Made by a program: the position numbers and the translations under genes | Notes under the pieces: generated by a model | Told to the model about the DNA's origin: nothing | What the model saw: only the letters and a program-made list of their open reading frames with translations | Databases searched by the model: none | Part shown: one piece after another, positions 20,127 to 55,592 of the stretch | Numbering within the stretch: position 1 is the first letter of the stretch | Layout: each line of letters starts with the position of its first letter | Source: Eximiradius sp. | GTDB taxonomy: Bacteria; Bacteroidota; Ignavibacteria; Kapaibacteriales; UBA2268 | Assembly (NCBI GenBank): GCA_937127445.1 | Contig: CAKZLY010000018.1 | Coordinates: forward strand, 62,001 to 126,000 | Length of the DNA stretch: 64,000 nt | Reading direction: 5' to 3'

Positions 20127-20258
20127 ATGCCCCCAAAAATTATATACAATATTAGCAACAAATTTTGAAATTCCATAATGAATTTGACGTAATAAAAATG
20201 TATTTGTGGCTCAATTTTTGATAATCGTAAGAAATATTATTATTAGTATTAATAAAAG

Positions 20259-21134
20259 ATGAATATAATCAACTATATATATAATTTCCATAATTATCTG
20301 AAAAATCAACGTAATTTTTCTGTAAGAACCGTAATCACCTATGAACGTGCGTTGAATGATTTTCTAAACTATTTCGAAGAAACTTATGGAGTAGTTCCAG
20401 AAATAGGCGAAATACAAACAGAAGATATTAAACCATTTCTTGGATGGCTGCACGACCGAAATTTATCAAAAAGCAGCATAAAATTGAAAGTGTCGGCTAT
20501 TAAATCATTTTTTAAGTATTTGAGAAAGCATAATATAATAGATATTAACCCTGCAAAGGCAGTAGCAACACCCAAAAAAGAGAAGAAATTGCCTTCTTAT
20601 CTTACAAAAACAGAGACAGAACTTTTATTTTCGGAAGCAATATGTCAGAGTTCTCCACAAGTTGTATGTTTGATAGAGCTTTTGTATGGCTGTGGGCTAC
20701 GCATAAGCGAAGCACTTAATCTAAAACTGAATGATATTGATTATTATAATAAGCAAGTAAAAGTATTAGGAAAAGGCAACAGAGAAAGGATTGTTCCAAT
20801 TGGAAGCAAAGCAATAGAGGCGATAAAGAATCATTTGAAAATGCGGAGAACAAGCAACAACTATCTATTTTCCTCAAAAACAGGTAAGAAGTTAAATTCA
20901 GCGGTTGCTTATCGTCAAATAAAGCAAGAAATAACAAAAGTGTCCGGGACAAAACGTAAAAGCCCACATACTTTGAGACACACTTTTGCTACACATCTTC
21001 TTGATAATGGTGCGGACTTAAAGGCAGTAAGTGAAATGCTCGGACATAGATCATTATCGACTACACAAGTATATACTCATCTTTCGATAGAAAGATTGAA
21101 ACAAGCATATAAGCAAGCACATCCAAAAGCTTAG
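20259..21134 (+). CDS. Tyrosine recombinase XerC/XerD-like (copy 1)
   Basis: Site-specific recombinase of 291 residues. The N-terminal SAM-like core-binding domain (about 4-90) precedes the catalytic domain. The catalytic set is complete: Arg in GCGLRISE, Lys in GKGNRER, His-x-x-Arg in TLRHTFATH, His in LGHRSLS and the Tyr nucleophile in TTQVYTH. Size and lack of extra domains fit XerC/XerD, which resolve chromosome dimers at dif, rather than an integron or phage integrase. A second copy lies at 28956-29879. Which one is XerC and which XerD cannot be told by eye. The 3' end overlaps the convergent HDOD gene by four bases. Confidence 0.9.
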   Translation: MNIINYIYNFHNYLKNQRNFSVRTVITYERALNDFLNYFEETYGVVPEIGEIQTEDIKPFLGWLHDRNLSKSSIKLKVSAIKSFFKYLRKHNIIDINPAKAVATPKKEKKLPSYLTKTETELLFSEAICQSSPQVVCLIELLYGCGLRISEALNLKLNDIDYYNKQVKVLGKGNRERIVPIGSKAIEAIKNHLKMRRTSNNYLFSSKTGKKLNSAVAYRQIKQEITKVSGTKRKSPHTLRHTFATHLLDNGADLKAVSEMLGHRSLSTTQVYTHLSIERLKQAYKQAHPKA

Positions 21135-28955: not shown

Positions 28956-29879
28956 TTATGAGCGAGGATGAAACGAATGATAAACTTCACGAAGATAATC
29001 TCTATCTAAATGAGTATAAATCTGAGTTGTAGAAATATCTGAATGCCCCAGCATTTCCTGAACAGCTCGTAAATCTGCCCCACCTTCAATCAAATGAGTA
29101 GCAAAAGAATGCCTGAACATATGAGGGTGAACATCTTTTTCAATTCCTGCAATTTTTGCATAATTTCGTAGCAATTTCCAAATACCCATCCGAGAAAATT
29201 TATTTCCTCTCTGATTAAGAAATATGGTATTTCCAGAAACACCTAAACGATAGAATTGAATTCGCACATTGTTGATATATAAATTAAGCCAATTTAATGC
29301 AAAAGAGCCAATTGGGACAATTCTTTCCTTGGCACCTTTTCCGAAAACACGGACAATTTCGGCATCAAAGACAACTTGATTTATTTCAAGATTAATCAGT
29401 TCGGATACTCTCAACCCGCAAGCATAAAGCACTTCCATAATTGCTCTATCGCGTAGTCCGGCGGGACGAGATGTGTCCGCTGCTTCAATCATAGCGTTCA
29501 CTTCCGCAAAAGATAATACTTCGGGCAAAGCACGGCGTATTTTGGGAAGTTCGATTAAATCTGTAAAATCGTTTTTTGATTTCCCAATGGAAACAAGATA
29601 TTTGTGCAAAGCTCGAATAGAAGACAAATACCTACTTTTCGAAGAAGCAGCAAGTCCAATTTCAGATAGAAGTTCAATAAATTGAGTAACCAGCTTTTCG
29701 TTGCTTTCTGAAAAACTTGTAATATTCCGTGAAAGAAGAAATTCAGCATAAGTTTTAACATCGTGTTCATAAGATGAACGCGTGTTTTCGGACAAACCTT
29801 TTTCTAAGGAAATATAATTGAGGAATCCTTTTAAATTGCGAATAAAGTCCAGTGGCAAATTTGTTTTTGAAGTAATCAT
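28956..29879 (-). CDS. Tyrosine recombinase XerC/XerD-like (copy 2)
   Basis: Second Xer-type recombinase, 307 residues from the ATG at 29879. That ATG overlaps the TGA of the upstream methyltransferase gene (ATGA), which decides the start against the longer frame from 29912. Catalytic residues: Arg in CGLRVSEL, Lys in GKGAKER, His-x-x-Arg in HMFRHSFATH, His in LGHSDIS and Tyr in QIYTHLDRDYL. The C-terminal HLDRDYLREVY block is typical of XerD. With copy 1 it would form the XerC/XerD pair acting at dif in chromosome dimer resolution. Confidence 0.9.
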   Translation of the reverse strand: MITSKTNLPLDFIRNLKGFLNYISLEKGLSENTRSSYEHDVKTYAEFLLSRNITSFSESNEKLVTQFIELLSEIGLAASSKSRYLSSIRALHKYLVSIGKSKNDFTDLIELPKIRRALPEVLSFAEVNAMIEAADTSRPAGLRDRAIMEVLYACGLRVSELINLEINQVVFDAEIVRVFGKGAKERIVPIGSFALNWLNLYINNVRIQFYRLGVSGNTIFLNQRGNKFSRMGIWKLLRNYAKIAGIEKDVHPHMFRHSFATHLIEGGADLRAVQEMLGHSDISTTQIYTHLDRDYLREVYHSFHPRS

Positions 29880-30679
29880 TTTTTCTTGTTGAATTGAATG
29901 AGCATAAACCAACCAGCCCTATCCCCACCAAGTAATAAAGCTAACTTGCGGGCGATCCGCTGCATAGGACGGTTAAAACGTTCCAGTTTATCGTAATAAG
30001 TTAGCACAGTTTTTATTTTAATATTTTCAACTGGAAGTTTTTGTAACATTTTAAAAGCTTCTTTACGAGTGTAAGCTTTGGTCCCGGGGCTTTCCATTTT
30101 GTTCCACAGCACATTAGAGAGCGAAAGCCACGGTTTAAATTTGAGCAAAGCGTGTTTTATCCAGAACAGATAAGCGAGTATGCTATGACGGTGATATATC
30201 ATTATTTTTGCTGTTCCACCAGGCGCGAGCACACGAACAATCTCTTTAAGTGCGGCTTCGGTATCGGGAGTATGGTGAATAACGCCCCAACTCCATACCA
30301 AATCGAAAAAGTTATTCTGGAAAGGCAGATTTTCGCAGTCGGCAACCTGAATACTTTCAGCTTGAAAGCCATAAATATTAAGCCTATGATGGACATGTTC
30401 GCAAGCTTGTTCGGTTAAATCTACTCCGAAAACCTTTGCACCGGCTCTTGCCCATTGCAAGAAATCGGTGCCCGCGCCAACACCTACTTCAAGCACTTTT
30501 TTGCCGTACCAGCGGGTAAATTCTGCAAATGCAAATATTTCAGGTTGAATCGTATATCGAAATTCTTCTATTTCTTCGAAATAATCCTTAGTGAATTTTT
30601 CTTTACTGCTGCTCCAAGAACCACAAGTTTCGTTATTCCAGTAATTTTTTACATCGTATTTTAATTTTTCTTCACTCAT
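29876..30679 (-). CDS. Class I SAM-dependent methyltransferase
   Basis: Methyltransferase of 267 residues with a Rossmann-type domain of the Methyltransf_11 kind. Motif I VLEVGVGAGTDFLQWARAGA binds SAM, the acidic residue after strand 2 is in FGVDLTEQA, and the later DLVWSWGVIHHTPD is typical of UbiE-like small-molecule methyltransferases. The C-terminal part (about 165-265) is basic and helical. The substrate cannot be told from sequence. Its stop overlaps the start of xer copy 2, so the two genes are co-transcribed. Confidence 0.85.
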   Translation of the reverse strand: MSEEKLKYDVKNYWNNETCGSWSSSKEKFTKDYFEEIEEFRYTIQPEIFAFAEFTRWYGKKVLEVGVGAGTDFLQWARAGAKVFGVDLTEQACEHVHHRLNIYGFQAESIQVADCENLPFQNNFFDLVWSWGVIHHTPDTEAALKEIVRVLAPGGTAKIMIYHRHSILAYLFWIKHALLKFKPWLSLSNVLWNKMESPGTKAYTRKEAFKMLQKLPVENIKIKTVLTYYDKLERFNRPMQRIARKLALLLGGDRAGWFMLIQFNKKK

Positions 30680-53863: not shown

Positions 53864-53873
53864 GTTGGGCGTA
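53864..53873 (+). repeat. Left end of cassette-like insert (inverted copy of the right-hand motif)
   Basis: GTTGGGCGTA is the exact reverse complement of TACGCCCAAC at 55456-55465. The first seven bases fit the integron core site GTTRRRY, where IntI cuts after the G. Confidence 0.5.
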
Positions 53874-53956
53874 ATGCTGCGACAGCGGTTCACATTGAAA
53901 ATTACGGTTCGACAAACGAACTTTTTGACTAAATTTGAAGACTGACTTTTAATAAT

Positions 53957-54946
53957 ATGGCGACAGCAACAAGATATAAAATCAAGGACGAAAATCCTTC
54001 AAAGGTTGAAGACCTTTTCAATCCTTACAATGTGGGTGCAAGACCATTTTTAAAATGGGCAGGCGGCAAAGGACAATTACTTGACAAATTTCAAGACCTC
54101 TATCCTAAACAGCTAAAACAAAAAAAGATCAAGACTTTTTACGAGCCTTTTTTAGGTAGTGGTGCGGTTTTCTTTGACATTGCACAAAATTACGACATAG
54201 AAAGTGCATACTTATACGACATTAACGAAGAACTAATATTAACTTATCAAGTTATTCAAAAAGACGTTTCAAAACTGCTTGACTTTCTGTATCGTTACCA
54301 GAAAAACTATCTGAAACTCGACAGAAAACAAAGACAGGAGTTTTTTTACGACCAAAGGACAAACTACAATTTACAACGCTTCAACACTGACTACGACAAG
54401 TATTCAGAGCAATGGTTTCCAAGAGCTGCCCAATTTATTTTCTTAAACCGGACTTGCTTCAACGGACTTTACCGGGTTAATTCAAAAGGAGAATTTAATT
54501 CACCAGCAGGCGACTACGACAACCCGACAATTTGCGATGAGCAAAACTTAATGGCAGTTCACCAAGTTTTGCAAATTGCGGAAATTAAAAAAGCTGACTT
54601 TAGACAAGTTGTTGCAGACTTAAAAGACAAATCATTTGTGTATTTTGATCCGCCATACAGACCAATCAGTAAGACAGCAAATTTTAAATCTTACAGCAAA
54701 CAAGATTTTGCCGACAACGAACAAATCGAACTCTCAAAATTATTCAGAGAGCTTGACAAGGAAGGAATAAAAGTAATGTTGAGCAATTCTGACCCTAAAA
54801 ACAATGATCCTACTGACAACTTTTTTGATGAAATATACAGCGACTACAACATAATGAGAGTTCCTGCGAGAAGAATGATAAACTCAGACCCGACAAAGCG
54901 TGGAGCAATTAACGAAATCGTTGTTACAAACTATTCAATCGCATAA
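53957..54946 (+). CDS. DNA adenine-N6 methyltransferase (Dam/D12 class)
   Basis: Site-specific DNA N6-adenine methyltransferase of 329 residues, alpha-class order. The SAM-binding motif I is FLKWAGGK (residues 31-38) with FYEPFLGSGAVFF after it; the catalytic motif IV is DPPY (231-234) in VYFDPPYRPISKTANF. The layout resembles Dam and the DpnII-type methylases, which act at GATC, but the target here is not provable by eye. It is the modification part of the insert: the next gene starts directly after its TAA and encodes a broken restriction endonuclease. No strong ribosome binding site is seen. Confidence 0.92.
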   Translation: MATATRYKIKDENPSKVEDLFNPYNVGARPFLKWAGGKGQLLDKFQDLYPKQLKQKKIKTFYEPFLGSGAVFFDIAQNYDIESAYLYDINEELILTYQVIQKDVSKLLDFLYRYQKNYLKLDRKQRQEFFYDQRTNYNLQRFNTDYDKYSEQWFPRAAQFIFLNRTCFNGLYRVNSKGEFNSPAGDYDNPTICDEQNLMAVHQVLQIAEIKKADFRQVVADLKDKSFVYFDPPYRPISKTANFKSYSKQDFADNEQIELSKLFRELDKEGIKVMLSNSDPKNNDPTDNFFDEIYSDYNIMRVPARRMINSDPTKRGAINEIVVTNYSIA

Positions 54947-55439
54947 ATGGAAAAAGGAACTAAAAGTAATATTACAGGAAACCAGCTTGAAGTAGCAGTA
55001 AAGACAGTATTAACAGGAAAAGGATTTGAGTTAATAAATTATCGAGTTTGGGAAAAGAACAAAGAGAAATACGGTGAAGAATTACTTCTCGAAAATGTTC
55101 CATTCACGACAGTTTACGAACATAAAGGCAATACAGAATTTCTACTCATATCCAAAAAATATAACTTGAGAATAAGAATAGAATGTAAGTGGCAACAAAG
55201 TAGCAGGTTCAGTTGACGAGAAACTCCCCTATTTGTATTTAAATACCATAGAAGCAATGCCTGAAAATTCAATAATGATTTTAATTGACGGAGCAGGTTG
55301 GAAAGCAGGAGCAATCAAATGGTTAAAGGACGCTGTTAAACAAAAGAAATACACGACAGAAGAAACAAAGAACAAAGAAATTTTGGTGTTCAGCTTGACA
55401 GAATTTTTCACTTGGGCAAACAAGACGTTCATCAAGTGA
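54947..55439 (+). pseudogene. Restriction endonuclease (PD-(D/E)XK type), broken by a +1 frameshift
   Basis: The first frame encodes 89 residues and ends at a TGA at 55214-55216. The second frame continues with GSVDEKLPYLYLNTIEAMPE and runs to a TGA at 55437-55439. The two join as one protein of about 163 residues if one base near 55205 is removed. The motif IECK in RIRIECKWQQS is the E-x-K end of a PD-(D/E)XK nuclease site. The gene follows the methyltransferase without a gap, so it was the restriction partner. The site is not a homopolymer, which makes sequencing slippage less likely, but an assembly error cannot be excluded. If real, the methyltransferase acts alone. Confidence 0.75.
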
Positions 55440-55458
55440 CGAAAGAAAAAGCACATAC

Positions 55459-55592
55459 GCCCAACACGGGTTTTGCGTCAGGCGGGGTGACGTGCAAAGT
55501 TGGAGCTTTGTGCTTCGTATCAAGTTTATTGCTGGTTGACAGTTTTGTGCTCCGAAACCCGCCCGAATGCAAAGCCCGAAAACGTTATTGGC
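55459..55592 (+). repeat. attC-like imperfect palindrome at the right end of the insert
   Basis: The segment begins GCCCAAC (RYYYAAC type) at 55459 and ends GTTATTGGC at 55584. Its outer arms (55459-55488 and about 55558-55592) are imperfect inverted copies, both reading roughly GCC-AAC-CGGG-TTTGC-GGCGGG from the outside in, and inner GGAGC (55502-55506) faces GCTCC (55549-55553). Size (about 134 bases) and layout match large attC sites of integron cassettes. The terminal GTTATTG deviates from GTTRRRY. Confidence 0.5.

Follow-up and report, generated by a model that had tools for sequence, protein, structure and literature searches.

How did a DNA methyltransferase gene and its nuclease come to stand between an outer-membrane gene and porU in a Bacteroidota chromosome, and what moved them there? 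We asked this of a 64,000-nucleotide stretch of Eximiradius DNA (hereafter the window), for which an initial annotation had proposed an integron-like cassette without an integrase nearby.

The cassette upstream of porU

The features that we refer to are listed below by their position in the window.

20256-21131: XerC-like gene; with XerD, about 24-33 kb from the cassette
28959-29918: XerD gene; with the XerC-like gene, about 24-33 kb from the cassette
53864-55583, + strand: whole cassette, 1,720 bp; absent from three same-genus genomes, in which its flanks are contiguous
53864-53873, + strand: left end GTTGGGCGTA, the R'-like box of the circular form; perfect inverse of 55456-55465
53957-54946, + strand: Dam-family adenine-N6 DNA methyltransferase, 329 aa, intact (TIGR00571, E 1.6e-78; PF02086, E 7.7e-60)
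54947-55216, + strand: N-terminal part of a PDDEXK_11 nuclease (PF20472 positions 2-74, E 3.2e-20); frame lost near the end of the ORF
55233-55439, + strand: C-terminal part of the same PDDEXK_11 nuclease in another frame (PF20472 positions 85-145, E 2.6e-17)
55456-55465, + strand: TACGCCCAAC, R''-like box and outer arm of the hairpin; perfect inverse of the left end at 53864-53873
55463-55586, + strand: attC-like recombination site, AAC..GTT, 124 nt (118 bits with model R1; covarying homologues)
55467-55476, + strand: left arm of the inner stem, pairing with 55569-55578
55481-55486, + strand: left arm of the apical stem, GGCGGG, pairing with 55558-55563 in the window copy (register inferred by eye)
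55569-55578, + strand: right arm of the inner stem, pairing with 55467-55476
55579-55583, + strand: AAAAC, the unpaired side of an asymmetric internal loop between outer and inner stem, with a single A opposite at 55466
55584-55586, + strand: GTT of the downstream junction, from the comparison with the empty site; the crossover is inferred between G and TT

Where three genomes of the same genus (G001, G002 and G003) have an intact CGGA-GTT-ATTGGC with a single GTT, the window reads CGGA-GTT-(cassette)-GTT-ATTGGC. The GTT is common to both cassette junctions (53864-53866 and 55584-55586), and comparison with the empty site revealed no target duplication beyond these three bases. The insertion point lies between the outer-membrane gene and porU, which are joined unbroken in all three genomes, and the methyltransferase gene is absent from this place in each of them. 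With an exact empty site upstream of porU in these three same-genus genomes, the suggestion of a lone cassette at a secondary GTT site was right. The perfect inversion that had been seen between the left end and the start of the right-hand palindrome is also borne out.

A covariance model of the site family, R1, placed a site exactly at 55463-55586 (118 bits, E 7.9e-26), a score that is partly built in because the window sequence is among the model's 52 rows. Folded alone, the integrated palindrome was unexceptional (z of -0.85 and -1.15). When we joined the right-end site to the left end of the cassette, mimicking the excised circle, z was -4.0 for the top strand and -4.3 for the bottom strand. 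No transposase ORF was recognised within the cassette in the ORF list or with family profiles, the palindrome had no match in Rfam, and none of the phage records searched carries the site. The plasmid collection held no relative of the whole window cassette, only of its site.

PADLOC models called the window methyltransferase an orphan or a type II enzyme. Its nearest relative (64% identical), in G009, is followed by an intact nuclease in a single frame, which means that the nuclease frame in the window is broken or misread. The pair, a candidate type II restriction-modification system, is intact in G009, and in the window it consists of an intact methyltransferase and a nuclease spread over two frames. 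Both identities given in the initial annotation stood (TIGR00571 and PF20472), with the qualification that the nuclease frame is broken. In the seven other loci of relatives that we tested, no homologue of the methyltransferase stood beside a convincing site, indicating that the pair is no fixed cargo. The further idea that the pair stabilises an array finds no support in the window copy, a lone cassette whose nuclease frame is broken.

No integron integrase was found within the window. Phage_integrase matches in the whole genome comprised only two Xer-type genes and a decayed recombinase on another contig, in agreement with the earlier statement that no integrase lies nearby. The XerD protein scored above its NCBIfam cut-off and XerC below its own. 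The genome contains four sites at E <= 1e-4. On contig C27 (L007, 101-930), a recombinase of the lineage described below is broken by several stops and is followed by one cassette, whose gene encodes a DUF6994 protein and whose site is truncated. On contig C33, a serine hydrolase gene and a DUF1648 gene lie among decayed sites. As judged from its sequence, the window cassette is without an evident working integrase, either in cis or in the genome as assembled.

A family of hairpin sites in cassette arrays

A DNA similarity search found the right-end site in 14 of 60 genomes, a count that includes the genome of the window. A profile of the site gave 92 matches in the fetched loci and 145 (126 full length) after named loci and plasmids were added. 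At E <= 1e-4, 192 of the 395 species genomes sampled from the phylum had the site. The palindrome thus has many copies in relatives and belongs to a site family. Its plan begins with an AAC/GTT outer stem, a one-sided loop (an A against about five bases) and a 10-pair inner stem, and continues with a short internal loop, an apical stem and a variable top of about 70 bases. In the window (55487-55557) and in homologues across the family, the variable top holds imperfect repeats of a AGTTTNGTGCTNCG-like motif. A longer subtype of about 185 nt recurs on resistance plasmids (L168 10935-11122, L169 2757-2940, L170 5283-5468, and L171 235-422 and 4105-4291).

We examined the specified stem in 52 aligned sites. 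Standard pairs made up 88.0% of it compared with 61.5% after shuffling, the covariation score was 0.566 compared with 0.143, and 250 cells were changed on both sides compared with 88. Pairing dropped to 30-42% in slid controls. Changes on both sides occurred in 17 of the 21 stem pairs, and two of the five covariation measures (the number of pairs with both-sided change and the number of pair types) did not exceed the shuffles. One-sided changes of the G-U type were few, one pair excepted, which suits folded DNA more than RNA.

The class 1 integron plasmid that served as a yardstick gave no match to R1. Among 38 loci of other groups (0.5 Mb), a single one, from a Calditrichia MAG, matched, with four weak matches. 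This locus (L162, 94-3979 and 9207-10127) carries a true IntI and a divergent array whose sites weakly match the site-family model. It is possible that the array represents a link between IntI-type sites and the Bacteroidota family.

The sites form arrays of one-gene cassettes. For 56 array intervals, we compared six positions beyond GTT at the left end with the reverse-complemented right-end site of the same interval. The two agreed at 4.63 of 6 bases. Agreement with the upstream site came to 2.63, and 2,000 shuffled pairings gave 2.53 and at most 3.09. The 56 include long intervals with a possibly missed inner site and several from G035 with a common left-end repeat, both of which lower the score. 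We then considered 40 different cassettes with matched ends. The longest ORF ran in the site's orientation in 34 of them and had a median coding share of 81%, and many stop codons lay 8-25 bases before the site. When the ends were joined as in the excised circle, the bottom-strand fold was the more stable in 34 of 37 cases.

Several cassettes on contig C2 of G035 (L055-L057, ten copies) open with a common leader, GTTCAGCAAGATTCGCTT..., while their right-end sites differ. The leader consists of a small palindrome followed by up to about 150 common bases, and is perhaps a promoter-like or parasitic leader that spreads among cassettes.

The recombinase beside the arrays

We surveyed the same 395 species genomes for the sites (E <= 1e-4) and for the tyrosine recombinase that adjoins the arrays (E <= 1e-60). 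The recombinase was found in 117 genomes. Both occurred in 101, sites only in 91, recombinase only in 16 and neither in 187, giving an odds ratio of 13.0 and a p-value of 1.4e-23 that is not to be read strictly because the genomes are related. Polarity was fixed in 25 of the 26 integrases with a listed site within 20 kb: the sites lay on the integrase strand and on its 3' side in 21, on the other strand and on its 5' side (divergent) in four, and in neither arrangement in one. The exception is G209:C170:27033-29327, which has a site 5' of the integrase on the same strand. We also took 42 named loci from the genome collection; the titles of 41 assign them to Bacteroidota or to one of its groups. 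Sites were present in 22 of these loci (54 matches), and 51 of the 54 lay on the integrase's strand and 3' side.

In 28 arrays, we searched between the recombinase and the first site for a junction whose left end mirrors the first site. Such a first-cassette junction lay 63-155 bp past the recombinase gene in 17 arrays (15 as the single best candidate, two as ties). In the other 11, the search found no junction in an attI-like position; ten had no such junction at all, and in L067 it lay at the 5' edge of a divergent recombinase. The bases conserved at the junction are ATAWAACRAG^TT. The inverted repeat upstream of it had a mean of 5.39, compared with 3.26 after shuffling (maximum 4.17 in 200 shuffles). 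These sequences make the first-cassette junction a putative attI-like entry site.

The array-adjoining recombinase scored around the cut-off of the NCBIfam XerA model, which carries the product name "site-specific tyrosine recombinase/integron integrase", and fell short of that of the integron-integrase model TIGR02249. The spacing from KGxxR to HxLRHS was 64-65 residues in nearly all rows of the lineage, compared with 104-111 in IntI and 72 in the XerD of the window genome; the motif pattern misread or missed a few recombinase rows. From this short spacing and from a gap in the alignment, the IntI-specific additional domain is absent from the lineage. A tree of 81 rows set the IntI proteins apart (support 100) and brought together 35 Bacteroidota-type rows, TnpF included (support 82, on an unstarred branch). 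The group of 35 does not take in several Bacteroidota rows that have sites but are more distantly related. Among 60 relatives, IntI exceeded its curated cut-off in three, and one of these (G049) has family sites.

By sequence, the nearest solved structures were XerA 5hxy (1.4e-60) and the XerA-like 4a8e, followed by IntI4 2a3v. An AlphaFold model of the recombinase had good local confidence, and its fold matched XerA and IntI4; these matches add little beyond sequence because the pTM was 0.54. Long forms of the recombinase carry an N-terminal extension resembling DUF5710 (11 of 20, best 1e-4). We also considered HARP for the extension and rejected it as the weaker match (3 of 20, best E 0.0015). 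On plasmids of Myroides and Chryseobacterium, IS91-type transposase genes are paired with a separate tyrosine recombinase (L170 4256-5158 and L196 14895-15674). These recombinases sit among cassettes and form their own branch of the tree.

The same cassettes were found in different places. The genome G045, which belongs to the window's order and is a single contig, has an lnu(H) cassette immediately behind its recombinase; on an Empedobacter brevis plasmid, this cassette stands behind another site. The two copies are 92.6% identical over 950 bp. Identity starts at GTT, amounting to 96% over the first 100 bases inside and 16% over the 100 bases outside. A Myroides odoratimimus plasmid of human origin carries two aadS cassettes that match one in G045 at 99.8-100% identity; the three stand in different left contexts, and each starts at (C)GTT. 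By annotation and site model R1, we placed arr, lnu(H), estT, erm(F), ere(D), blaOXA, blaMYO-1 and aadS between or beside sites on plasmids of Empedobacter, Riemerella and Myroides.

A recombinase annotated as "xerD" or TnpF lies beside tet(X5) or tet(X3) in Acinetobacter and on pHH1107. It is 50% identical to the lineage at 83% query coverage and nests within it in the tree. An attI-like inverted repeat ending in CTTG^TT separates the recombinase from tet(X3), and this gene is followed by a partial site that reached only E 0.027. The sequences suggest that tet(X3) is a cassette of the Bacteroidota integron-like type, which we grade as likely and no higher because only 12 of 18 bases match between the left end of tet(X3) and its own partial site. 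The tet(X) plasmids have been described with the order ISCR2-xerD-tet(X)-res, and the only integron named in the part of that report available to us is a class 1 element at another place on the plasmid (PMC7530245). As independent support for the system, an excerpted report describes experiments in which the chromosome of R. anatipestifer takes up aph(3')-IVb together with a 140-bp attC-like 3' region without homology; in that excerpt, its authors note parallels for lnu(H) and blaRATA and suggest site-specific recombination, leaving the mechanism open (PMC13148043).

Origin of the cassette and comparison with known systems

Taken together, we conclude with a probability of about 0.88 that the window element is a mobile cassette of a Bacteroidota-wide integron-like system and that it entered the chromosome in circular form at a G^TT upstream of porU. 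What is established here, at the level of sequence, comprises the exact insertion, the hairpin family, the matched ends, the arrays, their fixed polarity next to one recombinase lineage, the first-cassette junction that many of them have and the occurrence of one cassette at several locations. We propose that a XerA/IntI-like tyrosine recombinase lacking the IntI-specific domain would bind the hairpin of one site strand, more likely the bottom one, and would recombine it at G^TT, either with an attI-like site of its own or with further sites. Cassettes may now and then enter secondary chromosomal G^TT sites, as in the window. The one gene of this kind in the genome is decayed, so the recombinase that placed the window copy would have acted earlier or come from elsewhere. 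Weighing against the account are the 91 genomes with sites and no recombinase at the strict threshold, the 16 with the reverse, the 11 arrays lacking a junction in the attI-like position, the missing IntI-specific domain and the broken recombinase of this genome.

The initial reading of the locus as an integron-like cassette is supported. Each of the three outcomes named in advance as refuting it failed to appear: the family's own covariance model hit the site, relatives carry many copies of the palindrome, and the methyltransferase gene is missing from this place in the three same-genus genomes. Beyond what that reading could see, the mover is likely not IntI but a recombinase of a different, Bacteroidota-wide lineage. 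An ordinary attC cassette, mobilised by a classical IntI that the window genome merely lacks, would have the same AAC/GTT box logic and a similar hairpin plan. The IntI-linked Calditrichia array that the model matches weakly and the occurrence of IntI in relatives also favour this explanation. However, the curated cut-off was exceeded in so few relatives, only one of them with sites, the arrays adjoin the other recombinase, and the class 1 integron plasmid lacks any match to the site model, and we consider a classical IntI improbable. It is slightly less probable still that the chromosomal XerC/XerD pair moves the cassettes in the manner of the Acinetobacter pdif modules. Both genes are present in the window genome and the array recombinase lineage is related to archaeal XerA; nevertheless, the arrays are linked to that separate lineage, and the sites are long covarying hairpins rather than dif sites, defined as 28 bp in the excerpted PMC7530245.

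Two further explanations receive hardly any weight. The palindrome lies just past the stop codon of the cargo gene, as would an RNA element (a terminator or attenuator) beside genes acquired by ordinary genomic insertion. Against this, there is no Rfam match, the covarying pairs show few G-U intermediates, the cassette ends pair across the whole gene, the insertion boundaries coincide with the site ends, and identity ends exactly at GTT. Hairpin ends and single-strand folding also recall the IS200/IS605 group, and a transposon-like element of this kind is just as remote a prospect, given an element without a transposase, no duplication beyond the common GTT, and tandem arrays with polarity to a tyrosine recombinase.

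The system is integron-like and is not an IntI integron; we do not class it with IntI integrons because their defining integrase domain was tested for and is absent. Probably, though with less assurance than for the window element itself, the Bacteroidota have an integron class of their own, with sites in about half of the sampled species and a recombinase without the IntI domain, and this class would be the unrecognised mover of many of their resistance genes (lnu(H), aadS, estT, erm(F), ere(D), MYO-1). By the same account, tet(X3) would have begun its spread as a first cassette with the neighbouring "xerD"/TnpF as the remains of the integrase, and homology-free capture of resistance genes by naturally competent Riemerella would be explained. 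If the recombinase works as proposed, a phylum with many commensals and many opportunists of fish, poultry and hospitals has its own gene-capture system, and resistance genes described beside a stray "xerD" gain a mechanism of origin.

In excerpts of earlier work, the additional IntI domain is treated as essential or defining (PMC9668308, PMC8138268), and PMC8138268 calls it essential for integron function. The textbook point at stake is whether this domain is needed at all to recombine folded single-strand sites. Bacteroidota are among the phyla listed with integrons in the portion of PMC8618304 available to us. For Bacteroidetes proper, the available text of one survey names a single complete integron, that of Salinibacter ruber (PMC9024848), in contrast to the family sites in nearly half of the species genomes sampled here. 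In the titles and opening lines of abstracts of the open-access literature (subscription papers and preprints lay outside this scope), we found no description of this Bacteroidota system, and the closest was PMC13148043.

The likeness to integrons extends to a recombinase gene, an attI-like junction, tandem one-gene cassettes, hairpin sites with AAC and GTT, complementarity of a cassette's own ends, a bias toward bottom-strand folding and secondary insertion at G^TT. In contrast to integrons, the recombinase lineage here is separate in the tree and lacks the IntI insert (64-65 versus 104-111 residues), an N-terminal DUF5710-like extension is present in many of the integrases, the cassette ends are complementary well past the 7-base box, and most platforms have the array 3' of the integrase on the same strand.

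Integron cassettes without an integrase are known as CALINs, and cassette insertion at non-classical genomic sites is referred to as attG. The window shares with these a lone cassette at a chromosomal GTT, the absence of a nearby integrase and an exact empty site, whereas its site family and recombinase lineage are different. Both XerC/D pdif modules and archaeal XerA resemble the system in using a simple Xer-type tyrosine recombinase, and the nearest structures are those of XerA; unlike the short dif sites of XerC/D, the sites here are long hairpins carried in cassettes. Uptake of aph(3')-IVb, lnu(H) and blaRATA in R. anatipestifer, as described in the excerpt of PMC13148043, is alike in joining a resistance gene to about 140 bp of 3' sequence with attC-like folding and no flanking homology. 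To the account in that excerpt, we add a recombinase lineage, an attI-like junction and a phylum-wide distribution.
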